Source: Thiomonas sp. FB-Cd (GTDB lineage Bacteria > Pseudomonadota > Gammaproteobacteria > Burkholderiales > Burkholderiaceae_C). Taken from it: a DNA stretch of 64,000 nt. The notes beneath the pieces were generated by a model. The model did not search any database. It saw nothing but the letters and a program-made list of their open reading frames with translations, and was not told where the DNA came from. Of this stretch, positions 23,618 to 58,636 are shown in pieces. Each line of letters starts with the position of its first letter. The first letter of the stretch is position 1. Both the position numbers and the translations under genes were made by a program. Location: the NCBI RefSeq assembly GCF_000733775.1, contig NZ_JPOE01000002.1:2356001-2420000 (forward strand). The letters are read 5' to 3'.

Positions 23618-23767
23618 TGTTCGCAACAAATAAAGTCGCATCCTAAAAAGACATCAAGTTATTGATTTTATTAGACTTTAACTTGCAGTCCAAATCGAAA
23701 AGTTCTATCCTGATTTGATCAACCGGCGCCGTGCATGCGCCAAACACACAAAATAAAGTCCTATCCT
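23618..23767 (+). repeat. Left end of the Tn7-like transposon
   Basis: Begins TGTTCGCAACAAATAAAG. TnsB-like sites (consensus AAATAAAGTCCTATCCT) occur at 23628-23644, 23695-23711 (diverged) and 23751-23767. Three sites spaced over 150 bp match the layout of Tn7L. The innermost site overlaps the stop codon of the tnsE-like gene. Confidence 0.88.
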
Positions 23768-25410
23768 GCGCCGGAAGAAACAGGCGCAACTTCCAGCCCA
23801 AGCCTGAGTAGCAGTTTCATCGCCCATAAAGCGGTTTGTCCTTCTGCATCAGCCTTGTTTCTCGGGGTCAGCATCTTGGGCATTCGCTCGCAAGCGCACA
23901 CTTTGGACAATTCTTGCTCAACCTCATGATCCCAGTGACCGCTGGCATCGACCAAGCCATCCAGAGATCGTTGGACCGAAGCCTCGACGACATCAAAAGT
24001 CGTGCGATGGCGGAAGCGCAAAGCAATCAGGGACAGTGCGACATCCCCAGTGCGCTCCACATCCAGCAGCACGATAGGCGGATACCCTGGCGGCATGATT
24101 GTTACCACCAGCCCCACTCGAGGCTTGCGGTTGGCCATCGAGAACACCCGCCCCGTCTTGAGATAACACAGTGACATCCCAAACTGGATCTGAGGCTTCC
24201 TTTGCGCCATTTTCTGTACCGTACCGGCCAGCGCACTCAGGTCGCCAGCACAATCCCAACTGGCTGGCTTGAGCAGCTTGAACTCAAGCGGCGGCAACGT
24301 TGCACTGAGTCTCTGATCGCCCGAGCTGACTTTGATGGTTTTACGAACCTCAACCATCGGCCCCGTGGTGGACACGGGTTCCGTTGCCCAGTTGCCGCCC
24401 GGCCTGTCCAGCTTGATCAGTAATTTTTCAACTGTGATGCTACGGTCGAACTCAGATTGCTTGGAATAGATATCCGTCGCTTTTTCGCCGTGCGTCTTGG
24501 CTCCGTCTTGCCCATCGTCCAGTTCATAGTCGTAGACGAAGTGCTCCCTAGATACATCATCACCATTGGTGTCTGCCCCTGGCTTTCTTTCTGCGTTTTC
24601 TTTGCTGCGGATGACCTCCTTCATGGAGGGGTGCCCGTAATACAACTCGTCGCAAGGATGGTGCTTGCCAGTCAGATGCAGGAGTTCGAGCACCAACCAT
24701 TGGTTGCCCTGCTGAACGCCTCGGAATTTCCATACTGAATTTCTCAGTTGTGGCGGGGTGAAGGACACATACTCCTTGCCGATGGATTGGAGGCAGACAC
24801 GATCCCAAGCGCGCCGCGCACCTGGATCGAGTGCGATCCACGCAAATTCCTGTGCGAACTGATGCGACAGGCACCTCTTGGGTAGCTTTGACGTGAAGCG
24901 CAACGTCAGCACACGTTGATAGCCAGGAGCTTCGGGGTGGAAAAGCAGATTCAATGCACCGGGGCGAACGATGGCATGCGCCAGTGTGCTGTTGTGCAAG
25001 AAAAGGAAGCGAACCAGTTCAATGGTAGGAATCAGCACATCCCCTTGCGCTGTGCTGTACCGGAGCAGGCGCTGAATGCCACTGCCCCTGCGGTCGAAAG
25101 AATAGAGACCTGCTGGTATATCAGCCGAGGTGATTTCTTCGCATTCCGACGTATCCGAAATCGTCGCTTGCCCAATCAACCCACGCGCTGGCAAGGACTG
25201 TCGTTCACCCCGCGCGAAAACATGCCCAAGCGACAAAATTGGAAGCAATCCTATCGGCAACTCGACCTTGCTGTACTGACCCGACTCGACCCCCCGCATG
25301 GCAGCCCGGACGAACCAACCGCTCTCCTTCTCGACTAGGCCTGCAAGCCAATACATCTCGACATGTTCAGGGCCGAGGTTGGTAAGCTGCCTGATCAATA
25401 AACGGCTCAT
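23761..25410 (-). CDS. tnsE: TnsE-like transposition protein
   Basis: 549 residues, close to the 538 of Tn7 TnsE and last in a tnsABCDE-ordered operon. In Tn7, TnsE directs insertion into plasmids and lagging-strand replication structures. I see no catalytic motif, as expected for TnsE. Features include IELVRFLFLHNSTLAHAI around residue 130, a charged central linker and a conserved-looking C-terminal domain (LLDVERTGDVALSLIALRF). The start overlaps the tnsD stop by four bases. The TAG stop falls inside the inner left-end TnsB-like site. Assignment rests on length, order and partial resemblance. Confidence 0.75.
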   Translation of the reverse strand: MSRLLIRQLTNLGPEHVEMYWLAGLVEKESGWFVRAAMRGVESGQYSKVELPIGLLPILSLGHVFARGERQSLPARGLIGQATISDTSECEEITSADIPAGLYSFDRRGSGIQRLLRYSTAQGDVLIPTIELVRFLFLHNSTLAHAIVRPGALNLLFHPEAPGYQRVLTLRFTSKLPKRCLSHQFAQEFAWIALDPGARRAWDRVCLQSIGKEYVSFTPPQLRNSVWKFRGVQQGNQWLVLELLHLTGKHHPCDELYYGHPSMKEVIRSKENAERKPGADTNGDDVSREHFVYDYELDDGQDGAKTHGEKATDIYSKQSEFDRSITVEKLLIKLDRPGGNWATEPVSTTGPMVEVRKTIKVSSGDQRLSATLPPLEFKLLKPASWDCAGDLSALAGTVQKMAQRKPQIQFGMSLCYLKTGRVFSMANRKPRVGLVVTIMPPGYPPIVLLDVERTGDVALSLIALRFRHRTTFDVVEASVQRSLDGLVDASGHWDHEVEQELSKVCACERMPKMLTPRNKADAEGQTALWAMKLLLRLGLEVAPVSSGAG

Positions 25411-27169: not shown

Positions 27170-28795
27170 TCACGCCGCAAGATCAAGCAATGGCGGTTTC
27201 ACAAAACCAGCGGCCAGCAGCGCTTCATAGCCGGACTGACCGGCCTGCTTGCCAAGCGTCACGATGTGACGCAAGTCCTGTGCGGGCGTTGCCGAGGCCT
27301 TTGGTGGCTTGCGCGCCTGGGGCTTGCGCACCTGCACCAGGCGCTTCGCCAACCGCTCCGTGATCGCTGCCATCAGCAAAAGCGGATCGGCTGATGGATT
27401 CAGGCCGCTCGCTTCATTGATCAACACGTCCACCACATCGTCGGCGACGCCGAGTGATCTCAGGGCCGCACGAGTCGTGTCAATGCCGTCATCTTGCATT
27501 AGTACGCTCGCGGGCTCTACGACAGCAGGCGATAGCACCACGTCAGGCAACTGTGTCTTGAGCGCCGAAGCCAACACTTGATCCACATGAGCGTGCAGGG
27601 GCAGTAAGTCGTCGTATTTCAGTAATGCTTTTTTGTCATTCGAGCGAAGCGCATCCAGCATCGGTCGAACCACCTGGAAGTCTTCTCGGGCGACCTTGCG
27701 AAGTAATTCGACAGTCAATCTTTCTGGCCCGCGCCGAACCTCACCAATGCCGATCACACGCAACTGCGCCAGCATGAAAAGCTTGACGACGATGTCCATG
27801 ATGCCCTGGCTCTCGTCATAGAGAGCCTCACGGATCTCAGGGTTTATCTCCGTCGGCTCACATGTCCATTGATACTGCCAGAGCTGGTCAATGAAGTAGT
27901 CCCAAGCCTTGCCCTTGGGCATGCGATCCCAGACCAGTGAGCCCAGTCCACTGGCACGCCGGGCCTGACGGAAGTTCTCCTGTAACAGCGGGATCGCACT
28001 GAGCGTGCCAATCAAGATCACCGGAACGCCGATGGTGTTTACGAGCGTGACAAGAAAATTCAGCAATGCATCGGGACCGATCTTGGTCTTGTTCAGATGT
28101 TGAATTTCGTCGATGACCAGCACGCCCAAGGCGTGGAGGTTGGCGACGTGCGCCATATGCACCATCATCTCGTCCACGCTGGCACGACGGCTGCCGTACC
28201 AGTTGAAGTAGTTGGTACCAACTAATCGATCGACCGCCGAGAAGAAGTTGATACAGAGCTGCTTGGGAGACCCCTGGTGTGGGCAGTCCAGTTTCAGCCA
28301 TGTGATTTGCACCAGACTAAAGGGGGCTGTGTGCTGGAAGCATTGCGGGTACTGGTGCAGGACTTTCTCGATAGCCTTGGACTTGCCGATGCCGGAGCAG
28401 CCGACCAGCGCGAAGCTGGTGGCAGTGTTCTCCACCGGCTGACGAGTCGGGATGGTCAGTGACTTCGCCTCGATCCGCTCGGCACCGCTTTGCAAATGCC
28501 GGATGTAGTCGTGGGTGAGTGGGTTGCGACCAACATAGCCTTGGCGTAGCAGCATGCCGAAGCGATCGGCCAACTGGATCTGGCGTTCCAATGGCTCGAA
28601 GTACCGCCCCAACCGCATGATGCAGTGCTTGCGCAGACTGGCTGCGTAGCCTCTCTCCCGCACATGAAATTCCGGCCTCGCCGCGAGGGCGTCAAGCAAC
28701 TGCCGCTGCGACCCCAATGGCGGCAGGCGTGCGATAAAGGGATTGCCTTCGTACTCGGGCAACGAAGATGTCGGCGTTTCAGGGCTTGTCATCAT
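27170..28795 (-). CDS. tnsC: TnsC AAA+ ATPase transposition regulator
   Basis: 541 residues from the ATG at 28795 (MMTSPETPTSS), which overlaps the 3' end of tnsB; a longer upstream frame to 29017 only repeats tnsB sequence. Walker A is GCSGIGKSKAIEKV near residue 140 and Walker B is VLVIDEIQHLNKT. Sensor-like GTLSAIPLL follows. Length is near Tn7 TnsC (555). It links the TnsD- or TnsE-selected target to the TnsA/TnsB transposase and carries target immunity in Tn7. Confidence 0.93.
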   Translation of the reverse strand: MMTSPETPTSSLPEYEGNPFIARLPPLGSQRQLLDALAARPEFHVRERGYAASLRKHCIMRLGRYFEPLERQIQLADRFGMLLRQGYVGRNPLTHDYIRHLQSGAERIEAKSLTIPTRQPVENTATSFALVGCSGIGKSKAIEKVLHQYPQCFQHTAPFSLVQITWLKLDCPHQGSPKQLCINFFSAVDRLVGTNYFNWYGSRRASVDEMMVHMAHVANLHALGVLVIDEIQHLNKTKIGPDALLNFLVTLVNTIGVPVILIGTLSAIPLLQENFRQARRASGLGSLVWDRMPKGKAWDYFIDQLWQYQWTCEPTEINPEIREALYDESQGIMDIVVKLFMLAQLRVIGIGEVRRGPERLTVELLRKVAREDFQVVRPMLDALRSNDKKALLKYDDLLPLHAHVDQVLASALKTQLPDVVLSPAVVEPASVLMQDDGIDTTRAALRSLGVADDVVDVLINEASGLNPSADPLLLMAAITERLAKRLVQVRKPQARKPPKASATPAQDLRHIVTLGKQAGQSGYEALLAAGFVKPPLLDLAA

Positions 28796-30953
28796 GGCGT
28801 TGAGTGCTACCCAGAATTTCGGTGATGTCCGGCTCGCTGTAATCATCAGGCACAGCGTTTGGAAACTGAATGATGTCAGCACTCTTGCTGGCGTTCTGAC
28901 TCGATGGTTCAGCCTGAAAGCGGAAAGTCTCGGCGCTTCGATTGACCAACTTCTCAACGGCGCGGTTGGCGCGGATGTTCTTGGTGCGTTTGGCCGCACT
29001 CTCGGTGCTGGGTTCACCCTTCAACTTCACGGCATCGGACACGATCCCTTCGATGCTGGCAGCCAAGTCGGCCGCGGCCAGTTGCTGGCGTGGTTGTCGT
29101 TTCGCCGAAATCTGCTTCTCTGCCTCTTGCAGTTGCCCGAGTTCCCATACTGATATTTGTTGATGTGCCCGGCTGCGCTCGGTTAGTTGGCAGACTTGGA
29201 ATTGCATCGGCGCCTCGGGATCGTGCAGGTAGATTTCATCGAGGTTGCGTGGATCGCAGGAGATTTTCACCTTCCAGTTGCCACGCTGTCGCGCCTTGTC
29301 GAACCACCTTTCCTCCAGAGCTTTCTGGCATGTGTAGAAGATGCCTCGCAGGCGGATGCCGTTGAGCGTGACTGTGGCCTCTTCGACCGGCAGCAGGCTG
29401 AAACGAACCAGATTCTCCGGGTATTGGCGTAGGCTGCCACTGCGGTTGGCGATGCCCCAGTTCCATAGATCGATGGGCACCGCTGCAATGTTGTCGGCTG
29501 CGAGGTCACGGTCCTTGTCGTATCTCTTCAGTTCATGATGATTGTTGTAGTACAGAACACACGCGATCACGATCCGGGTGAACTGATCAAGATCAAGTAC
29601 GGCATCAAGCCGATAGTCTTTGCCACCACGGGCGCGGTAATCCACATCGATATAGCCAGGCACATACGGCTTGAACTTGGCAGGGATCAGGCGGAATCGT
29701 TGCTCAACAATGCCTTTCCAGTCCGCACGGTATGCCGCAGCACTTTCAACCGTGACATTGAAGTTGTTGATTAACGTCTCGATCATGCGGCCTTCGATTT
29801 CACCCCGGTCACCCAGCAGCGTGGCTGGCAGGTGGTGGCAGGGCCAGGTCTCAGAATCAATCTCGTGGCCGCTTCGCTTGCAGAAGGACTGCTTGTCGCA
29901 GGCCGTATTGGCCAGGGCCATCATGGCTCCAACCCATGACGGGCCCTCAAGACCGACATAGATGCCGACAATCATTCGACTGAATACATCGATCACGACG
30001 TAGAGCACTGGACGGCCAATGATCTTGCTTCTGTCGATGCGCGAAACCAGATACACGTCGGCGATTGTCGCGTCGATCTGATAACGCGCACCCGGACCCC
30101 AGACCTCCGCTGTCGATGTGCCAATGAGCCCGCGTAGGTCCTTGTCATAGATTCGTGGTCGCAACCGCTCACGCTTGATGTCCAGTCGGTCGTGATCCTG
30201 CTCCAGCCAGTAATTGAACTGGCCAAAGCTTGGGAAACCGCTGGCCGAGGCGGCGCCATTTGGGGCATGGGTAACGCGGCCAGTGCCAGGATCAATCGTG
30301 CGCTCGCAGAAGAAATCCTTGATCATCTGGTCGTACGCACCACGCAGCGTGAACTTGGTCTGTGTGGTGTAGTAGCGTGCCACGGCGACGCGGAAGATCT
30401 TGCGGATGCCATCGTCGACATTGAGACCCGGTAACTCACCGAGCTTGCGGGGACGGCCGCGCTTGATGTCCGAGCTGCTGGCTGAACGCGCCTTTCCCTT
30501 GCCACCTGAGTTTGCGTAGTCGGGAAGCAATGCATTTGGCGTCTGACCGCGCTGCCAATAGCGCCGTAGATAAAGGTAGATGGTGGCTCGCGTTGCCAGT
30601 CCGGCGGCGACGCACCCGGCGACTTTTTGTGCTCGGTGCCCGGGGTAATAGATCTCGGGCTCGTCACAAATCAAATCGGCAACGATTTGCCACGCACGGT
30701 CTCGCTTGATTTTGCGCTGCTCAGGCAGGGATGCTTCCTCCACAATGGCCAGATAGGGGTCAGCAGTCAGCAACCTTGAACAACCTGCTTGCAAATCGGA
30801 TTGCAGGGCCTGCAACTGCACCAGTTCCGGCGTGGCATCGTGCGCTTTGGTGTCGATCACGAACCCGACAGGCTGTGTCGGATGTAACCACAACAAACGT
30901 ATCGTGCGAGCATGCGGCTCGCCGTATTCGAGCAGATCATTTCGCAACAGCAT
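28779..30953 (-). CDS. tnsB: TnsB DDE transposase
   Basis: 724 residues with an rve/DDE integrase core. The three acids appear in YQIDATIADVYLVSRIDRSK, LLGDRGEIEGRMIE and DWKGIVEQRFRLI. A helix-turn-helix N-terminal region precedes it, and a C-terminal domain would bind TnsC. It joins 3' transposon ends to target DNA and recognises the AAATAAAGTCCTATCCT-type sites at both ends. The start shares one base with the tnsA stop (TGATG). Confidence 0.95.
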   Translation of the reverse strand: MLLRNDLLEYGEPHARTIRLLWLHPTQPVGFVIDTKAHDATPELVQLQALQSDLQAGCSRLLTADPYLAIVEEASLPEQRKIKRDRAWQIVADLICDEPEIYYPGHRAQKVAGCVAAGLATRATIYLYLRRYWQRGQTPNALLPDYANSGGKGKARSASSSDIKRGRPRKLGELPGLNVDDGIRKIFRVAVARYYTTQTKFTLRGAYDQMIKDFFCERTIDPGTGRVTHAPNGAASASGFPSFGQFNYWLEQDHDRLDIKRERLRPRIYDKDLRGLIGTSTAEVWGPGARYQIDATIADVYLVSRIDRSKIIGRPVLYVVIDVFSRMIVGIYVGLEGPSWVGAMMALANTACDKQSFCKRSGHEIDSETWPCHHLPATLLGDRGEIEGRMIETLINNFNVTVESAAAYRADWKGIVEQRFRLIPAKFKPYVPGYIDVDYRARGGKDYRLDAVLDLDQFTRIVIACVLYYNNHHELKRYDKDRDLAADNIAAVPIDLWNWGIANRSGSLRQYPENLVRFSLLPVEEATVTLNGIRLRGIFYTCQKALEERWFDKARQRGNWKVKISCDPRNLDEIYLHDPEAPMQFQVCQLTERSRAHQQISVWELGQLQEAEKQISAKRQPRQQLAAADLAASIEGIVSDAVKLKGEPSTESAAKRTKNIRANRAVEKLVNRSAETFRFQAEPSSQNASKSADIIQFPNAVPDDYSEPDITEILGSTQRHDDKP

Positions 30954-31801
30954 CAGGCACTCTTCCTGGTTTGTTGCGCCGCAGTATTTGGAACTACGAC
31001 TTCAAGCGAATCCACTTGCATTTGCATGTCGAACTTGGTATTGAGATCGATGGTGATTCGTTTGTTGGCAGCAAGATGCCGTAAGACGGTCAGCGCTTCG
31101 CCGATGGCGAAGCCTTGCGTGCTTTCCAGAAGCCGGAAGAATTGCTTGATGGACATGCCGGTCGCCTGAGGCAAACAGGCCAAGAAGTTCCCGCATCGCT
31201 CATCCCAGTAGCTGGGTTGCGGTGCCGTCATCAGTTGCAATGACTGCATCTCATGCAACCAACGAAGATTCTTGATACGTTGGGCAGGCAGATCGAGATC
31301 GGTCACCAAGCCCCAGTCGACCCCTTTGATTTGCCAATAGCGGCGTTCGATTTCTTGCTTCTCAAGCGTACGGTCCTCATCGAGCTCAGACGCTGGTTTG
31401 ACGGACCGAGCGACGAGCGCACTCGTGTTACCTGCCCCCAGGTTAATCATGAAGTCGGTTGTCATCACGATGTCGGTGCGACTTTGTGTATCGATTGGGT
31501 GCCGAACTCCCATGTCGGCAGCAATGCGTCGTGTCTCGTCCCGATCCAGTGGAAACTGCTCACGAATGTCGGTGACCGCATCTGACCAGTCAAGCAACAG
31601 GAACAACGCTGTCTCCATATCCGACAGCAGATGATGTTCGCGACCCGTCTTGCGGCTGTGAATCCGAGAAGATCGACCCCGTGAAGACACATCTTGGACG
31701 TTGAGCCAAGGTCGGTAATCCTTTCCACGCCCTTGCCCACGCCCTTCCTTCAGGAATCGAGCGATTTTGTCCTCATCGAAACCGTACCTGCGCTTGGCCA
31801 C
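30953..31801 (-). CDS. tnsA: TnsA endonuclease
   Basis: 282 residues with a GTG start (31801). TnsA cuts the 5' ends of the element so that it moves by cut-and-paste. The restriction-type active site shows the Glu in LLSDMETALFLLLDW, the Asp in SRTDIVMTTDF and a downstream ALVARSVKP with the lysine. The winged C-terminal domain (TDLDLPAQRIKNLRWLH) contacts TnsC. It leads the tns operon. No TnsB-like sites lie upstream of its start, unlike Tn7, where tnsA is read from inside the right end. Confidence 0.92.
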   Translation of the reverse strand: MAKRRYGFDEDKIARFLKEGRGQGRGKDYRPWLNVQDVSSRGRSSRIHSRKTGREHHLLSDMETALFLLLDWSDAVTDIREQFPLDRDETRRIAADMGVRHPIDTQSRTDIVMTTDFMINLGAGNTSALVARSVKPASELDEDRTLEKQEIERRYWQIKGVDWGLVTDLDLPAQRIKNLRWLHEMQSLQLMTAPQPSYWDERCGNFLACLPQATGMSIKQFFRLLESTQGFAIGEALTVLRHLAANKRITIDLNTKFDMQMQVDSLEVVVPNTAAQQTRKSA

Positions 31802-32070: not shown

Positions 32071-32655
32071 CTACGAACCATGCGGCGGAACGCCAAGGAT
32101 GATTTCAGTGGGCCGCACAAAATGATAATCAGGAATAGCCATATTACCTGGTGCTGGCATATTCTTGAAAACTCTGGCTGCCAGATCATAAGTCGAGCCA
32201 TGACACGGGCACAGAAAACCCCCAACCCAATCTGATGGCAAGCCTGGCTGTGGTCCCGGATTGAGTCGATCTGTGGGCGAACATCCAAGGTGTGTACAGA
32301 TATCGGTCCAGATGAAATATTCTGGTTTGGTGGAGCGCCACTGGTTGCGCGCCCATTCTGGCGTCGGGTATTGCGTGCTCTGGGAAAGAGGGTCGACGAC
32401 CCTGGACTGTGTGACATTCAAGGAAGCCAGCATCGCAGGCGTGCGATGAAGGATTCCGATCGGCTGGCCGCGCCACAAAACTGTTTTGCGCTGCCCGGGC
32501 TCTAGGCCGGTGAAATCGACTTTGATCGGGCCACCTTCTGCCCGAGCCGCTGCCGAAGGGTCCATCGATTCGATGAACGGGACTGCCGTGGCCGCACAGC
32601 CGATGCAGCCGGTCGCGCCCGTGGCGAGCAGCCAGAAGCGTCGTTGTGGATCCAT
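32071..32655 (-). CDS. petA: Ubiquinol-cytochrome c reductase-type Rieske iron-sulfur protein
   Basis: 194 residues with one N-terminal membrane anchor (FWLLATGATGCIGCAATAVPF) and a C-terminal Rieske fold. The 2Fe-2S ligands are in CTHLGC and CPCHGS. It matches the bc1-complex PetA, yet no petB or petC lies nearby, so it is a lone copy. It is divergent from aioBA, with paired palindromic operators between. It may serve electron flow linked to arsenite oxidation or replace the host subunit; both are inference. Confidence 0.88.
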   Translation of the reverse strand: MDPQRRFWLLATGATGCIGCAATAVPFIESMDPSAAARAEGGPIKVDFTGLEPGQRKTVLWRGQPIGILHRTPAMLASLNVTQSRVVDPLSQSTQYPTPEWARNQWRSTKPEYFIWTDICTHLGCSPTDRLNPGPQPGLPSDWVGGFLCPCHGSTYDLAARVFKNMPAPGNMAIPDYHFVRPTEIILGVPPHGS

Positions 32656-32888: not shown

Positions 32889-33036
32889 GTAAATGGAGTA
32901 CTCGGCGGTCCGTGATAAACTTGCCACTGATGGGATGCGTGTTTTCACTATATCTATGGCTCTTGTTCGGATGTAAAAAGCGACTCTTCAACTGTTAGCG
33001 AGCTTTAACGAGCTTTAACTCACCCGAGGAGGCATC

Positions 33037-36592: not shown

Positions 36593-36615
36593 GCCCGTAG
36601 GCCAGAAGGCGGAGC

Positions 36616-43257: not shown

Positions 43258-43261
43258 GGCC

Positions 43262-47644: not shown

Positions 47645-47672
47645 TGGGTTTGCAGACGGTTTTGCCGTGATC

Positions 47673-47885
47673 TCAATTTTGTGCGCTGGATGTTTTGGGC
47701 GACATTTTCGGAGTGGCTGTGAAAAATGCAAATGCCGCGATGAATAATGAAAAACCAAGTGCCAGGAATGGAAGATTGTGGGTCATTCCGTGCATCCATC
47801 CCCCAGACCAACTCAGAGTCGCACCTAAAAAGATGGCAAACCCGACGAGAAGACTGATCATTCCATAAAGATGATGTTTTTTCAA
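47673..47885 (-). CDS. Small two-helix membrane protein
   Basis: 70 residues with a TTG start at 47885, supported by AAGGAG seven bases upstream. Two membrane helices are evident: GMISLLVGFAIFLGATLSW and LPFLALGFSLFIAAFAFF. No family recognised. It precedes the cytochrome gene by 28 bases, so it probably belongs to that operon. Confidence 0.6.
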   Translation of the reverse strand: MKKHHLYGMISLLVGFAIFLGATLSWSGGWMHGMTHNLPFLALGFSLFIAAFAFFTATPKMSPKTSSAQN

Positions 47886-49109: not shown

Positions 49110-49501
49110 ACGCGCAGGCGATATCCGCCGCAGACCGCGAGCCAACCTCTGGACCCTTGATCGTGGCCTGCCTGTGTGCGCAGTGGTGCGTCGCGTGCAA
49201 CCTGTGGCAGGCCAATTTCCGGGCATTGGCGCAGCGCATCCCACGAGCCAGGATGCTGTGGGTGGATGTGGAGGATGCGCATGCCGTGCTGGGCGACTAC
49301 GAGGTGGAGAACTTTCCCACCCTCATCGTGCAGCGGGGCCCTTGGCTGCTGCATGGAGGCCCGCTGCCACCGCAGATTGGAGTGTGGATGCGTCTGGTCG
49401 AGGAATTCGTCCGCCTGTCCGCGGATGAGGCAGCGGCAGTGGCGGCCAAGCTGGCACAAACGCAACCCGAGCTGCCCGATCTTCGAGCTTTCGCGGAATA
49501 G
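49106..49501 (+). CDS. Thioredoxin-like protein
   Basis: 131 residues with a GTG start overlapping the CoxG-like stop (GTGA). The redox motif is WCVAC in CLCAQWCVACNLWQ, and the cis-proline is in ENFPTLIV. There is no signal peptide, so it is likely cytoplasmic. It may reduce the thioredoxin-type arsenate reductases encoded downstream on the other strand. That link is inference. Confidence 0.82.
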   Translation: MNAQAISAADREPTSGPLIVACLCAQWCVACNLWQANFRALAQRIPRARMLWVDVEDAHAVLGDYEVENFPTLIVQRGPWLLHGGPLPPQIGVWMRLVEEFVRLSADEAAAVAAKLAQTQPELPDLRAFAE

Positions 49502-49621: not shown

Positions 49622-50908
49622 TCAAGCCAGACTCAGACGCAGTGCGAGCGCGGTCAGCGTGATCAGCAGGACGGGCACGGTCAGCAGGACACCCACCTTG
49701 AAGTAGTACCCCCAACCGATGGTCATGCCCTTGCGCGCGAGCACGTGCAGCCAGAGCAAGGTGGCCAGACTGCCGATGGGCGTGAACTTCGGCCCCAGAT
49801 CACAGCCGATGACATTGGCATAGATCATGGCCTCGCGCACCGTGCCAGTGGCGTTCGTCGTCGCAACGGAGAGCGCACCCACAAGGACCGTTGGCATGTT
49901 GTTCATCACCGAGGAGAGGAATGCCGTCAGCACGCCCGTGCCAAACGCCGCGCCCCAGACACCATAGTTGGCGAAAACATTCAGCAGGTCCGCCAGATAC
50001 CCAGTGATTCCGGCGTTGCGCAGGCCATACACCACCAGATACATCCCCAGCGAGAAAATGACGATCTGCCAGGGTGCTTCGCGCAACACCTTCCGGGTGC
50101 TGATGACATGGCCGCGCGCAGCCACGCCGAGGAGCAGCAGCGCACCGAAGACCGCGACGGCGCTGACCGGCACACCTAGCGGTTCAAGACCAAAGTACCC
50201 GAGCAGCAGGAGCGCCAGCACCACCCACCCGATGCGGAACGTGGCCGGATCGTGAATGGCCTCCTGCGGCTGTTTGAGCTGCGCCATGTCGTATTGGGCG
50301 GGGATGCTGGGCCGGAAATAGAGCAGCAGCACGACCAAGCTGGCGGCGATCGCGGCGATATCCACCGGGACCATGATCGCGGCGTATGCGTTGAAGCCGA
50401 TGTTGAAGAAATTGGCCGAGACGATATTGACCAGGTTGGACACCATCAACGGCAGGCTGGATGTATCGGCGATGAAGCCGGCGGCCATGACGAAAGCCAG
50501 TGTTGCCGCCGGACTGAACCCGAGCGCCAGCAGCATCGCCATCACGATCGGCGTCAGAATCAGCGCTGCGCCGTCATTGGCGAACAAGGCCGCCACGGCT
50601 GCGCCCAGCAGGACCAGGAAGGCGAAGAGTCCGCGCCCGTTGCCGCGCCCCCAACGTGCCACACGCAGCGCCGCCCACTCGAAAAAGCCGGCTTCATCGA
50701 GCAACAGGCTGATGATGATGGTGGCGACGAAAGTAATGGTGGCGTTCCAAACGATGTGCCAAACCGCCGGAATATCGGCGAGATGAATCACGCCGGTCAG
50801 AAGGGCGGCAATGGCGCCGAAAGTCGCGCTCCAGCCGATGCCCAGCCCGCGCGGTTGCCAGATCACCAAGACGAGCGTGGCGATGAAGATCAGCAGTGCG
50901 ATCAGCAT
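49622..50908 (-). CDS. arsB: Arsenite efflux pump
   Basis: 428 residues, about 12 membrane helices, very close to the 429 of E. coli ArsB. Conserved stretches: [37 protein letters not shown] and [20 protein letters not shown]. It exports arsenite alone or with ArsA. The ATG at 50908 lies 4 bases after the CBS gene stop; the longer frame adds an unlikely N-terminus. Last gene of the ars operon. Confidence 0.95.
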
Positions 50909-50912
50909 CGGC

Positions 50913-51395
50913 TCAGTTCTTGCGCATGGGGTTGAAGGCATCCGGGCCGCTGTTGGCCAGGCGCTTGACCAGATCGAAGCGCGAGATCATGCCGACCAGC
51001 CGTTCGTGCTCGATCACCGGCAGGGACTTGATGCTGTGATCCACCAGCAGACGCGCGGCCACGGTGACATGGTCTTCGGGTGCCACGGTGAGGACTTCCC
51101 GCGTCATGACCTGCGCGGCCGTGCGGCCCTCGGCCTTGTCCGGCTCCGGCGTACGCCGGCGAAACACGGAGCGGTAGAAGTTCTCCTTCCAGACCGATTC
51201 GCGCGGCTCCAACCGCTCGTCGGCCGCACGATGCACCAGGTCGCCCTCGGTCACGAGGCCGAGCAGGTGTCCCTCGGCATCGGTCACCGGAACGCCGTTG
51301 ATGCGGTGCTCGATCAAGATGCGGGCGATCTCCGCCACGGGCGTCTCCGGTGCGATCCGGATCGGGTTCGGGGTCATCAGGTCACGGACTTTCAT
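50913..51395 (-). CDS. CBS-domain pair protein of the ars operon
   Basis: 160 residues with two CBS domains ([17 protein letters not shown] and [18 protein letters not shown]), separated by a charged linker. CBS pairs bind adenine nucleotides. Such a protein often accompanies arsA/arsB in extended ars operons and may couple efflux to energy state. A GAAAGGA site precedes the ATG at 51395, which lies inside the end of the upstream oxidoreductase gene (14-base overlap). Confidence 0.9.
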
Positions 51396-52806
51396 GCTGT
51401 GTTCCTTTCTCAAGATTTGTGGGTCGATCGGCGGTGAACGACTTGTCAGCACCGGTTTTCACCGCGCTCATCCAGGCCTGCGCCCCCATCTGCACCGGGT
51501 CCCAGGGGCTGCTGAACGGAGGTGTGTAGCTGAGATCGAGATCGTTCAAGTCTTCGACGCCCATGCCGTGGAACAGGGCTGCTGCGAACACGTCGATGCG
51601 TTTCGACACCTCCGAACGCCAGTGGCCGAGGATCTGCGCGCCGAGGAGACGACCAGTGCGGCGATCGCCGGTCACCCGGATGCGGAGCTTATGCGCGCCT
51701 GGGTAATAGGCCTTGTGATCCCAGGTTTCGATCTCGAGGGTGACGGGATCGAAGCCGGCCGTGCGCGCCTCAGCTTCGCACAAGCCCGTCCGTGCGATCG
51801 CCAACTCGAACACCTTCACGGTCTGGCTGCCGACCGAGCCCGCGAAAGAGCGCTCTCCGCCCACCGCGTTCTCGCCGGCCACACGGCCCTGTTTGTGCGC
51901 GGTCGTCCCAAGCGGCAGGTACACCGGTCGCTGGAGGATCCGATGCCAGGTCTCGACGCAGTCGCCGGCGGCCCCGATGCCGGGGATCGTGGTTTCCATG
52001 CGCTGCGTGACGCGGATGGCGCCCGAGGGCCCCAGTGCAATCCCAGCCGTGGCGGCAAGGGTGGTGTCAGGGCGCACGCCGGTGGCGACCAGCACCAGAT
52101 CGGCAGTGGCGGCAAACCCGCCCGAACCCGACACCGTAAGACCGCGCCGGTTGCCGGCGGCTTCGATGCGCTCGACGGTGCAACCGGCTACGACCCGCAC
52201 GCCATGGCGTGACAACTCCTCCCCGATCAGTCTGCCGAACGACGGATCGACGCTTGGGAACACGGGATCGGTATGGCTCACGAGTGTGACATCGATCCCC
52301 CGATGCCGCAGCGCGTCGGCCATCTCCACGCCGATATAGCCCGCGCCGACGATGAGGGCCGAACGCGCTTCGCCCGTCGTGAGATGGTGATGGACCGCGA
52401 AGCTGTCCGCCATGGTGTGCAGGCCATAAACGCCGGGGAGATCGAGGCCGGGTAACCCTTGGGGACGGACTGGGACGGCACCGGTGGCGATGATCAGGTG
52501 GTCATAGCGCATCGTCTCCGCACGGCCGTTCGCCCCGCGCACGACATCGACCCTCTTTCCCGCGGGATGAATCGACACGACCCGACGGTTCGTCAGGATG
52601 TCGATGCCGTCGAACGCGGTGCGATGGGCGAGTTGCCGGTGATCCGGCGTCTCGCCGCTGAGGTAGAAGGGCAGGCCGCAGATGCTGTAGTTCGGGTACG
52701 CGTCGGCCAACAGGACGGATATCTCGGCTCGGGGATCGATCTCGTGAGCCCGCAATGCCGCGCTGATGCCCGCATCGCTGCCGCCGATGATGAGCAGGCG
52801 CGTCAT
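51382..52806 (-). CDS. Pyridine nucleotide-disulfide oxidoreductase (CoA-disulfide reductase/NADH oxidase-like)
   Basis: 474 residues. The FAD motif is LLIIGGSDAGISAALRA, the redox cysteine lies in NYSICGLPFYLSGE, the NAD(P)H motif is ALIVGAGYIGVEMADAL, and the second FAD motif is PGIGAAGDCVE. These define the CoADR/Nox family. Extended ars operons in acidophiles and Thiomonas carry a similar gene. It may keep thiols reduced for arsenate reductase or detoxify arsenic-derived oxidants. Starts behind AAAAGGAAC. Confidence 0.9.
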   Translation of the reverse strand: MTRLLIIGGSDAGISAALRAHEIDPRAEISVLLADAYPNYSICGLPFYLSGETPDHRQLAHRTAFDGIDILTNRRVVSIHPAGKRVDVVRGANGRAETMRYDHLIIATGAVPVRPQGLPGLDLPGVYGLHTMADSFAVHHHLTTGEARSALIVGAGYIGVEMADALRHRGIDVTLVSHTDPVFPSVDPSFGRLIGEELSRHGVRVVAGCTVERIEAAGNRRGLTVSGSGGFAATADLVLVATGVRPDTTLAATAGIALGPSGAIRVTQRMETTIPGIGAAGDCVETWHRILQRPVYLPLGTTAHKQGRVAGENAVGGERSFAGSVGSQTVKVFELAIARTGLCEAEARTAGFDPVTLEIETWDHKAYYPGAHKLRIRVTGDRRTGRLLGAQILGHWRSEVSKRIDVFAAALFHGMGVEDLNDLDLSYTPPFSSPWDPVQMGAQAWMSAVKTGADKSFTADRPTNLEKGTQHESP

Positions 52807-52894
52807 ACTTGTTCCTTTTCCAGGTTTGGCGCCGGAGAGAATCGCCTCGTGCTCCGCCGCTGGCGATCCGGAGCGATGCATACGCGATGAGGGG

Positions 52895-53407
52895 TCACGC
52901 CCTGTTTTCTGTACGTTGTTGGCCCAGATCACGCAACTGGGTTTGCAGCGACATGCGGTCGATCTTGTCGATAGGCAGGGCGAGGAGCGGACGGATGCGA
53001 GAGGCGATTTGGAAGTGCACGTTGGCGAAGGCCTTGAGTTGACGCTCACGATCCCCGACAACCGCGGCTGGATCAGCGAAACCCCAGTGGGCGGTGATGG
53101 GTTGACCCGGCCATGCGGGACAGGCTTCGCCAGCCGCCTGATTGCAGACTGTAAAAATGAAATCCATCGACGGCGCATCCGGCGCCGCAAACTCCGTCCA
53201 GCTCTTGCTGCGCAAGCCGTGAAGGTCATAGTGCTGACCGGCGAGCACTTCGAGCGTGAGCGGATGCACTTCGCCGCGAGGATGACTACCCGCGCTGTAC
53301 GCCTTGAACCGATCTCGACCGAGATGGTTCAAGATGACTTCCGCCATGATGCTGCGCGCGGAATTGCCGGTGCAGATGAACAGCGCGTTGTAGATTTTTG
53401 CGGCCAT
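52895..53407 (-). CDS. arsC: Arsenate reductase, low-molecular-weight phosphatase (thioredoxin-linked) type
   Basis: 170 residues with the phosphatase loop CTGNSARS at residues 12-19 and later cysteines in TVCNQAAGEACPAW. Reduces arsenate to arsenite for export. It starts one base after the arsA stop. The C-terminal 30 residues extend past the core. A second copy of the same family lies at 55587-56066, with CTGNSCRS. Confidence 0.92.
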   Translation of the reverse strand: MAAKIYNALFICTGNSARSIMAEVILNHLGRDRFKAYSAGSHPRGEVHPLTLEVLAGQHYDLHGLRSKSWTEFAAPDAPSMDFIFTVCNQAAGEACPAWPGQPITAHWGFADPAAVVGDRERQLKAFANVHFQIASRIRPLLALPIDKIDRMSLQTQLRDLGQQRTENRA

Positions 53408-53408: not shown

Positions 53409-55193
53409 TCAAGCTCTTTCGGTGATGAGGCTGGGGCGGGCAGTCAGTTCCAGCAGGCGATCGACGCCGACGGGCTCTTCTTTCAGCAGCGGCACGACCG
53501 CGTAGCGCCGGGCATGGCGGGTCGCGACGGCGTCGATTTCCCGCAGTTCGTGGCTGGCACGCTGACGCAGCAAGGGCGAGTTCGGCGCGGCCGCCGCGAT
53601 GCTGTTGTTGATGATCCAGGCCCAGGGCTCGATCCCGGCGCGGCGCAGGTCGGCCTGCAGGTTTGCCGCCTCCAGCACCGGGGTGGTTTCGGCCAACGCC
53701 ACGATCAGCACCTTGGTCTGCCTGGGGTCCTGCAACTGCATCATCGGGGTGGTGTAGTGCAGCCCGGTGCCGGCCATCTGGCGGGCGATTTCTCGGTGAT
53801 AGGCGCCTGTCGCGTCGAGCAGCAGCAAGGTGTGGCCGGTCGGTGCCGTGTCCATCACCACGAACTTCCTGCCTGCCTCGCGGATGATGTGCGAGAAGGC
53901 CTGGAACACCGCGATTTCCTCGGTGCAGGGCGAGCGCAGGTCCTCGTCCAGCAGCGCCCGGCCTTCCGCATCGAGCCGCGCGCCCTTGGTGGCCAATATG
54001 TGCTGCCGGTAGCGCTCGGTTTCGATGTGCGGGTCGATCCGGCTGACCGTGAGGTTGTCCAGCGCGCCGCTCAGCGTCTCAGACAAATGCGCTGCCGGGT
54101 CGGACGTGGTGAGATGAACCGGCAGGCCGCGATGGGACAGTTCGGCCGCGATGGCGGCGGCCAGGGTGGTCTTGCCTACGCCGCCCTTGCCCATCAGCAT
54201 CACCAGGCCGCGGCCGTCTTCGGCGATGCCATCGACCAAGGCGGACAGACTGGGGGCATCAAGTACGAGTACGGCCGGAGCCGCATGGGTGCTGGGCGCT
54301 TGCGAGGCCGTCGTGACCAGCAACTGGCGCAAGGCATCCAGGCCGACCAGGTTGAAGGGCTTGAGTGCGACCCGATCGCGGGGCAGAGTTTTGAGCACCT
54401 CAGGGATTGCGTCCAATGCGGTCCGTTCGTGCGCGCAGATGGCTGCGGCCAGAGGGTCGTGCGCGGCTTCTTCCGGCGGCAGGACGCCGTTGATCACCAG
54501 ATACTGCTGCGACAGGCCAATGCCGGCGAGTTCCTCATGGGTGCGTGCAACCTCCCGCAAGGCGGCTGGCTGGGCGCGGGCCACCAGAATCAAGCGGGTA
54601 CGCTGGGCATCGGCCAAAGCCTCCACGGCCGCCTTGTATTGGGCGCGCTGCTTGCCCAGTCCGGCCAATGGGCCGAGGCAGGAGGCATCGCCCTTGTCCG
54701 CTTCAAGGAAATCACTCCATGCGCCGGGCAATTGCAACAGCCGGATGGTATGGCCGGTCGGGGCCGTATCAAAAATGATGTGGTCGTAGTCAGCGGTCAG
54801 AGCCGAGTCGGTGAGCAACGCGGTGAATTCGTCGAAGGCGGCGATTTCGGTGGTGCAGGCGCCGGAGAGCTGTTCCTCGATGCCGTTGACGATGTCGTCC
54901 GGCAGCGTCCCGCGCACCGGGCCGACGATGCGCTCCCGGTACTGCTGCGCCGCTTGCTGCGGGTCGATTTCGAGAGCCGACAGGCCGGGCACACCATGGA
55001 TGCGCGTGATCGTGTTGCCGATGGCCTGGCCGAACACCTGGCCAATGTTGGACGCTGGATCGGTACTGACCAGCAGCACCTGTTTGCCTTGCCCGGCAAG
55101 TTGCATGGCGGTGGCGCAGGACAGCGATGTCTTGCCCACGCCGCCTTTGCCGGTGAAAAAGAAAAAGCGCGGCGGCTGTTCGAGAAATTTCAT
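53409..55193 (-). CDS. arsA: Arsenite-stimulated ATPase of the efflux pump
   Basis: 594 residues made of two homologous ATPase halves. Walker A motifs are FFTGKGGVGKTS and LMGKGGVGKTTLAAA, and the DTAPTGHT signature occurs in each half. A cysteine in each half (SGACTTEIAAF; SPCTEEIAVF) fits the metalloid site. It energises ArsB. The ATG at 55193 gives MKFLEQPPRFFFF; longer frames run into arsD. Confidence 0.97.
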   Translation of the reverse strand: MKFLEQPPRFFFFTGKGGVGKTSLSCATAMQLAGQGKQVLLVSTDPASNIGQVFGQAIGNTITRIHGVPGLSALEIDPQQAAQQYRERIVGPVRGTLPDDIVNGIEEQLSGACTTEIAAFDEFTALLTDSALTADYDHIIFDTAPTGHTIRLLQLPGAWSDFLEADKGDASCLGPLAGLGKQRAQYKAAVEALADAQRTRLILVARAQPAALREVARTHEELAGIGLSQQYLVINGVLPPEEAAHDPLAAAICAHERTALDAIPEVLKTLPRDRVALKPFNLVGLDALRQLLVTTASQAPSTHAAPAVLVLDAPSLSALVDGIAEDGRGLVMLMGKGGVGKTTLAAAIAAELSHRGLPVHLTTSDPAAHLSETLSGALDNLTVSRIDPHIETERYRQHILATKGARLDAEGRALLDEDLRSPCTEEIAVFQAFSHIIREAGRKFVVMDTAPTGHTLLLLDATGAYHREIARQMAGTGLHYTTPMMQLQDPRQTKVLIVALAETTPVLEAANLQADLRRAGIEPWAWIINNSIAAAAPNSPLLRQRASHELREIDAVATRHARRYAVVPLLKEEPVGVDRLLELTARPSLITERA

Positions 55194-55210
55194 GACGGTA
55201 TTTCCCGCGT

Positions 55211-55555
55211 TCAGCAGCAGTCTTGCGCGGCTTTCGACTCTGCTGCCGGTTGTGAAATGCCTGCCCAGCGAGCCAGCTCCATACGGTTGGGGTAGCGGCC
55301 CGCCAATGCCACTGCACCGTCCACCAGAACCAGGGGCAGGGCTTCCTGGCCGGAGCGTTCCAGGAACGCTTTGACCGTCGGGTTTTCGGCGAATGCCAGC
55401 GGTTGCCGGGCCAGATTGAAACGCTCGATCTGCGCACCGTTTTGCTTGGCCCAATCGGCGTCCGCCGAAAAGCTGACCAGACTTTGATCGACCTCCACGC
55501 CGCACACGCCAGTGCTGCAGCACAGGGCCGGGTCATAGACTTGAATGGCTTTCAT
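55211..55555 (-). CDS. arsD: Arsenite metallochaperone
   Basis: 114 residues. The N-terminal CCSTGVC carries the vicinal cysteines and third cysteine that pass arsenite to ArsA. Another CC pair closes the C-terminus, as in canonical ArsD. The middle FAENPTVKAFLERSG is typical. It lies 17 bases upstream of arsA. Confidence 0.95.
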   Translation of the reverse strand: MKAIQVYDPALCCSTGVCGVEVDQSLVSFSADADWAKQNGAQIERFNLARQPLAFAENPTVKAFLERSGQEALPLVLVDGAVALAGRYPNRMELARWAGISQPAAESKAAQDCC

Positions 55556-55586
55556 TATGAATCTCCATCAATGGTTGAAATTTGTG

Positions 55587-56066
55587 TCACAAAAAAGGCG
55601 TACCGATTCGATCTAGATGCGTCTTCAAGCATGCAGGATCGCTCTTCAACTCCGTCAGCGGCAGGGAGAGGAAGGCCTCGATGCGGGTGCGCAGGATGCG
55701 ATAGGCTGTCATGAAGGCAGCATTGATGGCCTCGTCGTCCCCAGTTGCATGCGCAGGGTCTTCGACACCCCAATGCGCGCGCAGGACCGGGCCAAGATAG
55801 GCCGGGCAGGCTTCGCCTGCGGCGCTGGAGCAGACGGTGATCACGATGTCCGGGGTTTTGGGCAAGTCGTCCCAGGACTTGCTGGAGAGTCCAACGGCCG
55901 GGATGCCTTCCCGCTCCAGCAAGGCCAGCGAGCGCGGATGCACCTGCCCGGTTGGATGGTTGCCCGCGCTCATCGCCATCCAGCCGGCGGGAGCCAGGTG
56001 GTTGAACGTGGCTTCGGCCAGAATCGAGCGGCAGGAGTTCCCTGTGCAGAGAAAGAGGATGTTCAT
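55587..56066 (-). CDS. arsC: Arsenate reductase, low-molecular-weight phosphatase type (second copy)
   Basis: 159 residues with phosphatase loop CTGNSCRS and the pair TVCSSAAGEACPAY. It has the extra cysteine in the loop that the copy at 52895-53407 lacks. It lies 3 bases after the arsR stop. Two different arsC genes in one operon may divide work between reductant systems or conditions; this is inference. Confidence 0.92.
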   Translation of the reverse strand: MNILFLCTGNSCRSILAEATFNHLAPAGWMAMSAGNHPTGQVHPRSLALLEREGIPAVGLSSKSWDDLPKTPDIVITVCSSAAGEACPAYLGPVLRAHWGVEDPAHATGDDEAINAAFMTAYRILRTRIEAFLSLPLTELKSDPACLKTHLDRIGTPFL

Positions 56067-56069: not shown

Positions 56070-56441
56070 TCAGGTTTCGACTAGGGTTGGCGAAGCTGTC
56101 GGCAGTGCCGTGTCGCAGTAGGTTGAAGCGCTGCTCAAGCCCGGACATTGCCCCGGGCGCCCGGAGCAGCACTCCTCGGTGAGATAGGCGATCAGATCCA
56201 GCATCAATGGAATGTTCGCCCGATAGCGCAGGTAGCGCCCCTCCTGTTCCACAGTGAGAAGGCGGGCCTGGGTCAGGGCCTTCAAATGGAAGGAGAGGTT
56301 GGTCGGCGGCACGTCAAGGGTGATCGCGATCTCGCCAGCCACCAAGCCCTCAGGCCCCTTTTTGACAAGCAGCCGATACACGTCCAACCGCACACCTGAC
56401 GAGAGCGATTCGAAGATTGAAGTTGCGGATATTTTTTCCAT
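56070..56441 (-). CDS. arsR: Arsenic-responsive ArsR repressor
   Basis: 123 residues. Winged helix (GVRLDVYRLLVKKGPEGL, then VPPTNLSFHLKALTQARLL) without the ELCVCDL site. The metalloid ligands are likely the C-terminal ECC and the following cysteine in QCPG, as in the C-terminal-cysteine ArsR subtype. First gene of the ars operon, with an AT-rich region upstream (56442-56540) that should hold the promoter. It probably represses its own operon. Confidence 0.88.
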   Translation of the reverse strand: MEKISATSIFESLSSGVRLDVYRLLVKKGPEGLVAGEIAITLDVPPTNLSFHLKALTQARLLTVEQEGRYLRYRANIPLMLDLIAYLTEECCSGRPGQCPGLSSASTYCDTALPTASPTLVET

Positions 56442-56753: not shown

Positions 56754-57788
56754 TCAAGCCGCATAACGAACCGGTCCATGTTCGAAGTATTTGCGAATCC
56801 GCTCAGGCTGACGTTGCACGCTGCGCAGGTGGCGTGCGGTGGCCTTGACCAGTTGCAGCTTCGTGCGCGCCGGGGCCAGAGTCGTCACCGCTTGCTTGAT
56901 GTCGGCGTTGGCCATCTCGTCGGGGTTGAGTTCGGGGCTGTAGCTGGGCAGGTAGAACACCTCGATCGCATCGGCGTGCTCGGCCAGCCAAGCTTTCACG
57001 GGCTTGGCGTGATGCACCCGCAGGTTGTCCAGGATCAGGAACAACTTCTTGCTCGCCCTTTTGATCAGCCGGCGCAGGAAGTCGATCAGGATGTCCGTGT
57101 TGAGCGCGCCGTCGAAAATGCGCCAGCGCATCTGCCCCTTGTTGGTCACGGTGGAGATCACCGACAGGCCGTGGCGCTTGTTGTTGACGCGGATCACCGG
57201 CGTTTGCCCCTTGGGCGCGAAGCCGCGACCCCGTACGTCGTCGCTGCGCAGCCCGCTCTCGTCGCCCCAGTGAATCTCCGCACCTTCGGACTTGGCCTTC
57301 GCGGCGATGACCGGGTAGTCCTCCTCGAGCCACTTCTTGACCGCCGCGGGCGACTGCTCGTACGCCTTTTTCATCGGCTTTTGCGGCGTGAAGCCCCAGC
57401 GCGCCAGGTACAGGCCCATCGTGCGCACCGCCAACCGGATGCCAAAGCGCTGCTCGATGAGCTGCGCGACCGCCGTGCGGGTCCACAGCGCGTAGGGCAT
57501 CTTCAACGGGTCAGGCGTCTTGTCGGTGATGAGCTTGCGCACCGTCGCCTCCTGTGCCGCGTCCAGCAGCCGGCCATCGCCGCTCTTGCGCCCACTGGGT
57601 GCGTCGCGCAAGGCCTTCGCGCCCGCCGCTTCGTGGCGCTTGCAGATGTCGAACACACCGGTGCGGCTCAACCCAGTCTGCGCCGCAATCTCGTCGTAGG
57701 TCCGGCCCGCTTTGCGTAGGCGGATGACCTGCACGCGTCTCTCGTGTCGCGCGTCGCGCGACAGCGATCTCATGTCAGTTGCTTCCAT
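56754..57788 (-). mobile_element. IS630-family insertion sequence with intact transposase
   Basis: A 344-residue transposase from ATG 57788. Helix-turn-helix LRKAGRTYDEIAAQTGLSR, then catalytic acids in IHWGDESGL, LILDNLRVHHA and SPELNPDEMANAD. Related to, but clearly distinct from, the frameshifted copy at 14657-15720. Possible terminal inverted repeats AACTTGAA / TTCAAGTT lie at 56746 and 57818-57825, so the element would span about 1.08 kb. It lies inside the Tn7-like transposon near its right end. Confidence 0.9.
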
Positions 57789-57825
57789 CACACCAACATG
57801 ATGGCGCATGCGAATACTTCAAGTT

Positions 57826-58569
57826 AAATACTTCCGAATCAATAATGCGTTGGCCTTGGTCGCGGAGGGCCTGGGGACGCGTGATCCTCATCCCTGAACG
57901 CTGTCTGTTCCCGGCGGTCCGCTTGGGATCGTCTCAGAAACGGATCGCAAAGTGCGTTCAGCGTATGTCCTCTTTCCCTGCCCTACCCTGGGCTCATCCC
58001 CGTACCCCACCCGTCTGCCTCCACTTCAGCTTCCACTGTCGAATCTTCCAAATCTGCATCCCTGGACGCTGCGCTGGCCCAAACCCGGGCGTTCAACCGC
58101 CTGCGTAACCTCGCGGAGAAAGCCGCCAAGGATGCCGGATTGCAGGTTCTGCGCCCGGTGGCGCAGACCTATCTGGCCGGCTTGCCGGTGCTGAAACTGC
58201 AAGCGGCTGAGGATGACCAGCCCGGTCGTGCGCCCTATTTGCTGCCGTTGGCGGCGGACATTCACACCCAGTTCGCGCGGTGGATGCGCGCCCAGCCTGC
58301 AAGCCAAACCCTCTCGGGCACGGCTTTGCATCCGTTGTCCAAGCAACTGCTGTATCCGCATCTCTCCTCGCCAGCGTACAGGCGGGTGGTTTGGGTGCGC
58401 ACCTGCGGGTCAACCTGGATGGCTCGCCCGCAGGGGCCATCACCCCGGGGCGCCGGGACGCGGCCCGGCAACGCCTGGCCCGCCAGCCTTGAGTCCGCCA
58501 TGACGTTCAGCACCCGAGTCGGTAACGACTGAAAAATCCGTAAACAGTCCAGTAGTTCCTTAACGCGAC
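57826..58569. other. Degenerate region between IS630 and the right end
   Basis: Plus-strand frames around 58040-58500 look protein-like in places (AFNRLRNLAEKAAKDAGLQV; later LGAHLRVNLDGSPAG in another frame), so this may be a frameshifted gene remnant. I do not recognise the family. No intact gene is supported. Confidence 0.4.
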
Positions 58570-58636
58570 AGGATAGAACTTTATTTTTCAGGATAGTACT
58601 TTATTTGTTAGGATAGAATTTCATTTGGCGTCAACA
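58570..58636 (+). repeat. Right end of the Tn7-like transposon
   Basis: Three TnsB-like sites, AGGATAGAACTTTATTT (58570-58586), AGGATAGTACTTTATTT (58590-58606) and AGGATAGAATTTCATTT (58610-58626), at exact 20-bp steps, then a terminal ACA at 58634-58636. They are the reverse complement of the left-end motif. The dense packing matches Tn7R. Confidence 0.92.

Follow-up and report, generated by a model that had tools for sequence, protein, structure and literature searches.

Can a complete set of arsenite-oxidation and arsenic-resistance genes move between bacterial species as one exactly bounded unit? The question is raised by a 64-kb stretch of the Thiomonas sp. FB-Cd genome (hereafter the window, to which coordinates without a contig name refer), in which such genes lie next to glmS and in which an original prediction, made from the letters of the sequence, had placed them in a Tn7-like transposon. 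Our analysis makes it very probable that the arsenite-oxidation (aio) and arsenic-resistance (ars) module is the cargo of a cut-and-paste transposon of the Tn7 family, an element present in 3 of the 28 Thiomonas genomes searched.

A precisely bounded Tn7-family element downstream of glmS

The whole element spans 35,019 bp (23618–58636), and reading the junctions directly confirmed its boundaries to the base (Table 1). The left terminus, TGTTCGCAACAAATAAAGTCGCATCCT, starts at 23618 and the right terminus, AGGATAGAATTTCATTTGGCGTCAACA, ends at 58636; TGT...ACA termini and arrays of TnsB-like sites are present at both ends. Scanning the entire window for AAATAAAGTCCTATCCT with at most four mismatches gave six matches in total: two in the left end (23628 and 23751, plus strand), three in the right end (58570, 58590 and 58610, minus strand) and a stray one at 47601. 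A weaker TnsB-like site near 23697 in the left end was seen by eye. The stop codon of glmS (TCA on the plus strand) lies at 58662–58664, which is 25 bp from the element including the duplication, and the attTn7 recognition region is formed by the 3' end of this gene. The precise bounds given in the original prediction, with CATGG at both ends, TGT/ACA termini, TnsB-like arrays, tnsABCDE and the short distance to the glmS stop, were thus all confirmed by direct reading or family matches.

These boundaries are more than chance, because nearly the same termini, with other 5-bp duplications, were found again in two more Thiomonas genomes, those of T. delicata DSM 16361 (G001), which we take to be the strain called T. 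arsenivorans, and of G027, and similar ones in an element of Rhodoferax. The first 143 bp of the left end occurred once each in the window genome (G000), T. delicata and G027 (100, 100 and 92% identical) and were not found in the other 25 of the 28 genus genomes. The right end in T. delicata is identical to that of the window element, and a right-end search of 399 genomes of the family matched these two genomes only, in a draw that holds few members of the genus and perhaps not G027.

Two other units were ruled out. A larger integrative element or a composite bounded by insertion sequences (IS) does not fit both ends being TnsB-like arrays with 5-bp duplications in three genomes. The 8-kb tns block as a separate small element with a right end beside tnsA was rejected on the lack of a TnsB-like site (at most four mismatches) near 31.8 kb and on the same layout in the Rhodoferax sister.

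The tnsABCDE frames are open in the window element. TnsA scored 198 bits against Tn7 TnsA (1f1z), TnsB 443 bits against Tn7 TnsB (7pik), TnsC 323 bits against solved Tn7 TnsC and TnsD 128 bits against Tn7 TnsD (8glu_X), and the contexts of E/D/K in TnsA and D/D/E in TnsB, which we take to be the catalytic residues, align with the Tn7 proteins. For TnsE, 7 of 12 aligned homologues match PF18623 (TnsE_C), and the predicted model (mean predicted local distance difference test score 71) gave seven Foldseek matches at E ≤ 0.001, all of them solved TnsE C-terminal domains. Against this assignment, the window TnsE alone matched no Pfam or NCBIfam family and its profile found no PDB chain by sequence. 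A tnsE search of 399 genomes of the order returned only the window genome and one 38% relative.

In Tn7, tnsA adjoins the right end and the cargo lies between tnsE and the left end. The window element shares with Tn7 of E. coli the same five genes in the same order and the arrays of TnsB sites, but it has 26.8 kb of cargo between the right end and tnsA, and its tnsE abuts the left end; tnsA is thus away from the right end, although a place beside that end is the usual, not strictly defining, arrangement. No Cas family was found among the element's open reading frames (ORFs) scanned with Pfam, which were not all of its ORFs, and no search was aimed at a CRISPR-associated type. On sequence grounds, the TnsA/TnsB pair, TnsC, the TnsD-type selector, TnsE, the end arrays and the 5-bp duplication place the element in the Tn7 family proper. 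Tn7, like the window element, makes a 5-bp duplication and inserts ~20–25 bp after glmS, according to an excerpt of PMC2918618.

Independent insertions in three genomes

The T. delicata copy (G001:C4 175459–210467, 35,009 bp) also lies at glmS, with ACAAC on both sides. In a global alignment it is identical to the window element at 34,801 of 35,002 positions (99.43%; BLAST gave a lower value, 98.8%, because its alignment ran on into glmS), with identical blocks of 10,215 bp and 10,144 bp, whereas host DNA on the glmS side is identical at 796 of 1005 positions (79.2%). This contrast indicates that the element was recently transferred between species.

The third copy, in G027 (C3:2157322–2203801), lies far from the glmS of that genome (at about C3:929.8 kb), which a different Tn7-like end adjoins. 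It is more diverged, with 99.1% identity over the longest aligned block (23,750 bp) and 95–97% in four others. This copy sits within an open reading frame, with GTGGC on both sides, and its flanks align to an intact paralogue of the interrupted gene (C3:3434673–3435485) so that they overlap by exactly five bases, one GTGGC; for this insertion an exact empty site was thus found. Orthologues in G000, G001 and G026 are intact at the insertion point. The interrupted gene has no confident Pfam name; it is immediately preceded by a gene for a 4Fe-4S dicluster protein.

The 5-bp duplications all differ: CATGG in the window, ACAAC in T. delicata, GTGGC in G027 and ATAAC in the Rhodoferax sister. These junctions show separate insertions of the element, two of them at glmS in different species and one within a gene of another genome. 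The idea of a precisely bounded Tn7-type vehicle carrying oxidation and efflux genes as one unit is therefore upheld by three genomes, each with its own duplication.

Insertion at an occupied attTn7 site

In the nearest relative, G004 (glmS region 94.5% identical), a different Tn7-like right end lies 23 bp after glmS, and the displaced end in the left flank of the window element matches the G004 sequence next to that gene at 95.5% identity over 67 bp. As the same type of end lies beside glmS in G004 and in the window's left flank, the element entered an attTn7 site that was already occupied. Next to the T. delicata copy, the displaced sequence is an array of another kind, found in G025 immediately downstream of glmS (87% over 250 bp). 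Both insertions, to judge from these flanks, displaced an older, different Tn7-like end from glmS.

A glmS match was obtained in 19 of the 28 genus genomes, with at least 150 readable bases after the gene in 14. Two or more AARKTC words within 170 bp after glmS were present in 10 of these 14 genomes, compared with 30 of 5000 random stretches, the word having been chosen after inspecting the sequences. By eye, the other four have looser arrays (G014, G018 and G025) or none (G024). Exact repeats of at least 8 bases after glmS gave no discrimination, as 1670 of 5000 random stretches have one. The data indicate that attTn7 is crowded in this genus and that new arrivals here stack on the glmS side; different TnsB sites of the resident would presumably explain stacking despite target immunity.

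Further observations concern the residents. Downstream of glmS in loci L083–L097, at least five different families of repeat arrays were seen by eye across one genus, which form a natural series of Tn7-like elements at one site. Unlike the end in G004, the displaced right end in the window has its terminal unit twice, 29 bp apart (23557–23612), and the doubled unit may be what is left of another insertion. Type I restriction-modification genes (HsdM, HsdS, DUF4268 and HsdR) lie just inside this right end (15923–22957). Just left of the window, a second, different Tn7-like gene set lies on the minus strand (G000:C2:2338243–2348381; L142, L107). It encodes a TnsD-type protein of 593 aa, a TniQ of 502 aa, a TnsB-like protein of 823 aa (30% to window TnsB) and a TnsC-like protein of 425 aa, and is possibly the machinery of the displaced resident. 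The left end of that resident was not fixed: near G000:C2:2325749 there is a sequence resembling a terminal repeat, but it is flanked by GCTGG and not by CATGG.

Probable exchange between aio copies and the scope of the vehicle

The window and T. delicata copies differ in 225 aligned columns, 194 of which fall into two tracts (172 in 35296–36882 and 22 in 38138–40048). T. delicata also has an aio copy without tns genes on contig C5, to which its own transposon copy has 14 and 1 mismatches in the two tracts, compared with 125 and 21 for the window copy; this likeness to the second aio copy of T. delicata is what gene conversion would predict. Over the first tract, identity to the G027 element is 98.3% for the window copy and 89.4% for the T. 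delicata copy; in the second, both are about equally far from it. The G027 element is 99.96% identical to the second copy of its genome over 4,627 bp at aio, compared with 69 to 98% in other stretches. Gene conversion between aio copies after arrival is the simplest reading of these patterns.

The tns-free aio-ars copies (G001:C5:715700–733815 and G027:C3:3403406–3423204) match 33.0–56.6 kb of the window in pieces. The match begins at 33023–33025, and the bc1-type Rieske gene of the element falls outside it in both copies.

Matches to aioA were found in 9 of the 28 genus genomes, 14 in all including one partial, and 3 of the 14 lie inside the element. No TniQ match was found within 500 kb of the other aio copies on long contigs (G000 C5; G001 C4 and C5; G027 C3), and the contigs of the remaining aioA copies, several of which are short, gave no TniQ match. 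We compared 12 of the 14 aioA matches, leaving out that of G005 and the partial copy on G001 C8. The chromosomal aioA of the window strain (G000 C5) is 94.7% identical to that of G004, tracking the host (glmS region 94.5%), whereas the transposon-borne aioA is 98.1–98.5% identical to the element copies in G027 and G001, with glmS regions about 77–81% identical. Five aioA copies in G000, G001 and G027 are at least 96.4% identical among themselves despite distant hosts. Since 3 of the 14 matches are in the element and tns-free copies exist, the vehicle explains the additional copy in these strains and not all Thiomonas aio loci. The proposal that such a unit explains the spread of arsenic islands therefore holds for its movement in three genomes but is too broad for Thiomonas generally.

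Alternative explanations and proposed mechanism

The module could instead spread mainly by homologous recombination or in larger genomic islands, with the tns genes as passengers. Closely related aio-ars copies without adjacent tns genes (G001 C5 and G027) and the conversion-like tracts, which point to recombination between copies, favor this view, as do published excerpts that place ThGEI-O (an aox island) in different genomic regions of strains CB2 and 3As and describe ThGEI-L as derived from an integrative and conjugative element. Spread by recombination or islands is likely for the tns-free copies. For the module as a whole we regard it as very unlikely, since the same terminal sequences bound three copies, whose 5-bp duplications all differ, and identity in the host DNA next to the T. 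delicata copy reaches only 79%. We also give little credence to the possibility that the off-site copy in G027 was placed by something other than this transposase, for example by moving together with its flanks: its tnsE and tnsD end are interrupted, but its perfect 5-bp duplication and the exact empty paralogous site argue against such a route. A chimeric assembly or contamination mimicking recent sharing between the window and T. delicata is scarcely credible. Two stretches of more than 10 kb with no mismatch are indeed unusual for two species, but the copies adjoin the glmS genes of their respective hosts, and they share neither the duplication nor the displaced neighbour; the more diverged third copy in G027 also speaks against contamination.

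The preferred reading is thus cut-and-paste movement by a Tn7-family transposon. By analogy with Tn7, TnsD would bind the 3' end of glmS, TnsC would act as the bridge, and TnsA and TnsB, bound to the end sites, would excise the 35 kb and place it some 25 bp downstream, with a 5-bp duplication as the trace and glmS left intact. TnsE may provide a second route into other DNA, as the gene and the one off-site copy suggest. An occupied attTn7 is no block, as the element lands on the glmS side and displaces the resident. Once in a new cell, its aio genes seem to undergo recombination with the other aio copies there.

Several points weigh against this account. The plain empty site anticipated in the original prediction, glmS followed by 25 bp and a single CATGG, was not found in relatives, the nearest of which has the different Tn7-like end there. 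The G027 copy has since gained insertions, which among other places interrupt tnsE and the region near the 3' end of tnsD, and transposition could have ceased, the three insertions indicated by the sequences being past ones. As for conversion, the first tract keeps its 14 mismatches to C5, and two clusters of differences (52562–52586, 8 columns; 54948–55614, 19 columns) fit C5 no better in T. delicata than in the window. In PLSDB, no plasmid with a TnsB of at least 60% identity was found, which bears on movement between cells; the 33 aioA matches there were all 60–80% identical.

Cargo genes

The ORFs of the cargo were scanned for families in part, not every one (Table 1). The aioBA genes, cytochromes, regulators, molybdenum-cofactor genes and ars operon are present as originally described, except that seven ars operon genes were named instead of eight, in the order arsR-arsC-arsD-arsA-oxidoreductase-CBS-arsB. 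The true start of moeA is probably near 40.2 kb.

Table 1 Features of the element and its flanks in the window
Feature	Coordinates	Strand	Evidence or remark
Right end of older, different Tn7-like element, displaced from glmS	23517–23612	.	four TGTTTACGACTTTAAT-type repeats
Target-site duplication, left copy CATGG	23613–23617	.	read directly
Left end	23618–23767	.	terminal TGTTCG; TnsB-like sites 23628–23644, 23751–23767
tnsE, 549 aa	23761–25410	-	homologue Pfam matches; structure-model match
tnsD, glmS-site selector, 583 aa	25407–27158	-	PF15978, PF06527
tnsC, AAA+ regulator	27170–29017	-	PF13401/PF05621; start uncertain, ORF overlaps tnsB
tnsB, DDE transposase	28779–30953	-	PF09299
tnsA, endonuclease	30953–31801	-	PF08722/PF08721
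Rieske iron-sulfur protein, bc1 type	32071–32655	-	domain match
aioB, arsenite oxidase small (Rieske) subunit	33037–33576	+	PF00355; position before aioA
aioA, arsenite oxidase large subunit	33604–36129	+	TIGR02693, 1185 bits (cut-off 359)
Cytochrome c	36017–36592	+	PF00034
ArsR-family regulator	36629–37069	+	PF01022
Nitroreductase-family protein	37107–38312	+	PF00881
ArsR-family regulator, second	38634–38975	+	PF01022
moaA, molybdenum cofactor	38948–40153	+	PF04055, PF06463
moeA	39768–41453	+	PF03453, PF00994, PF03454 over residues 156–557
Rrf2-family regulator	41398–42084	+	PF02082
Crp/Fnr-type regulator	41997–42977	+	PF00027, PF13545
moaE	43124–43813	+	PF02391
Metallo-beta-lactamase-fold (ODP family) protein	44289–45089	+	PF19583
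Cytochrome c, second	47066–47758	-	PF13442, PF00034
Thioredoxin-domain protein	48434–49501	+	PF00085
arsB, arsenite efflux pump	49622–50941	-	PF02040, 509 bits
CBS-domain protein	50913–51452	-	PF00571
Pyridine nucleotide-disulphide oxidoreductase	51382–53229	-	CoA-disulfide-reductase-like, below equivalog cut-off
arsA, pump ATPase	53409–55523	-	TIGR04291, 911 bits (cut-off 650); ORF longer than gene
arsD	55211–55555	-	PF06953
arsC, low-molecular-weight phosphatase type	55587–56066	-	PF01451; role by position
arsR	56070–56441	-	PF12840/PF01022
IS630-family transposase, inside element near right end	56754–57809	-	NF033545
Right end	58570–58636	.	three TnsB-like sites, 20-bp spacing; terminal GTCAACA
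Target-site duplication, right copy CATGG	58637–58641	.	read directly
glmS	58662–60974	-	SIS and GATase domains; ORF longer than gene

Related elements and known systems

A pattern-based tnsB search of a species-genome collection gave 95 relatives, of which the best 80 loci were used; records very near the window genome may be left out of this set. Among the matches listed, only T. delicata DSM 16361 (NZ_LT592170.1) was near-identical, the others being at most 88% identical. By eye, the left end directly follows tnsE in the window, T. delicata (L002), L003, L004 and L005; in the Methylotenera relatives L004 and L007 no right end was placed with confidence. At least two of the element's site words follow tnsE in 5 of the 43 loci with tnsE (L002–L005 and L027), a count that detects the window element's family of sites and would miss those of other families. 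The gap between glmS and tnsA, in the 46 loci with both genes in order, is at most 280 bp in 23 and 342–7558 bp in 23; elements with cargo on the right-end side of tnsA may therefore be not so rare.

The sister element of Rhodoferax sp. BLA1 (NZ_SZVI01000012.1, about 393480–416400) lies after glmS and has a TnsB 87% identical to that of the window, similar ends, the same layout and ATAAC on both sides. Its cargo is of restriction type, including an Eco57I-type methylase, an SNF2/PLD helicase and an SMC-like ATPase, and no aio or arsA match was found in the stretches searched; similar ends thus occur with other cargo. Within flanks limited to 10 kb, aioA was found in one of the 80 tnsB loci (L002, T. 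delicata). In Zoogloea oleivorans (L008), ars genes (8423–11577; arsA 73% identical) follow the tnsE of a related Tn7-like element, and ars cargo was therefore probably taken up more than once in this Tn7-like clade.

The arsenic islands of Thiomonas (ThGEI-O, RGP10 and RGP19) resemble the element in their aio/aox, ars and moa or moe genes, as described in excerpts of the papers; tns, Tn7 and glmS have no occurrence in the main texts of two Thiomonas island papers. Tn7-like islands of Burkholderia, Cupriavidus and Bacillus are similar vehicles, loaded with genes for metal resistance, aromatic degradation or arsenate resistance. They differ in that tnsA, B, C and tniQ make up the set in the Burkholderia element and the Cupriavidus element has no tnsE, and arsenite oxidase cargo was not found in the available parts of these descriptions. 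Among titles and abstract openings of the open-licence literature, no paper in point linked Thiomonas or arsenite oxidase with Tn7. Tn7-like elements with metal or arsenate resistance are already known as genomic islands; the window element is an added, recently mobile Tn7-family case, whose cargo is uncommon and whose movement is supported by unusually complete genome comparisons.

An excerpt of PMC2829063 concludes that the aox genes of Thiomonas were vertically transmitted, and calls the duplicated aox of T. arsenivorans a first example of aox duplication. We think it fairly likely that the additional Thiomonas arsenite-oxidase locus was recently brought in by one small Tn7 lineage, in which the left end adjoins tnsE and the cargo lies between the right end and tnsA; this lineage would stack before residents and trade aio by conversion, in which case aio trees would mix host-following and mobile lineages. 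Two points temper this view: two difference clusters misfit conversion from the tested copy, and other elements commonly show a gap separating glmS from tnsA. The element is an exact-ended vehicle by which a full gene set for arsenite oxidation and efflux can pass horizontally from species to species in one piece, and it offers a natural example of stacking at attTn7. With a host-tracking chromosomal aioA and a transposon-borne aioA in one strain, the origin of aio duplications becomes testable.

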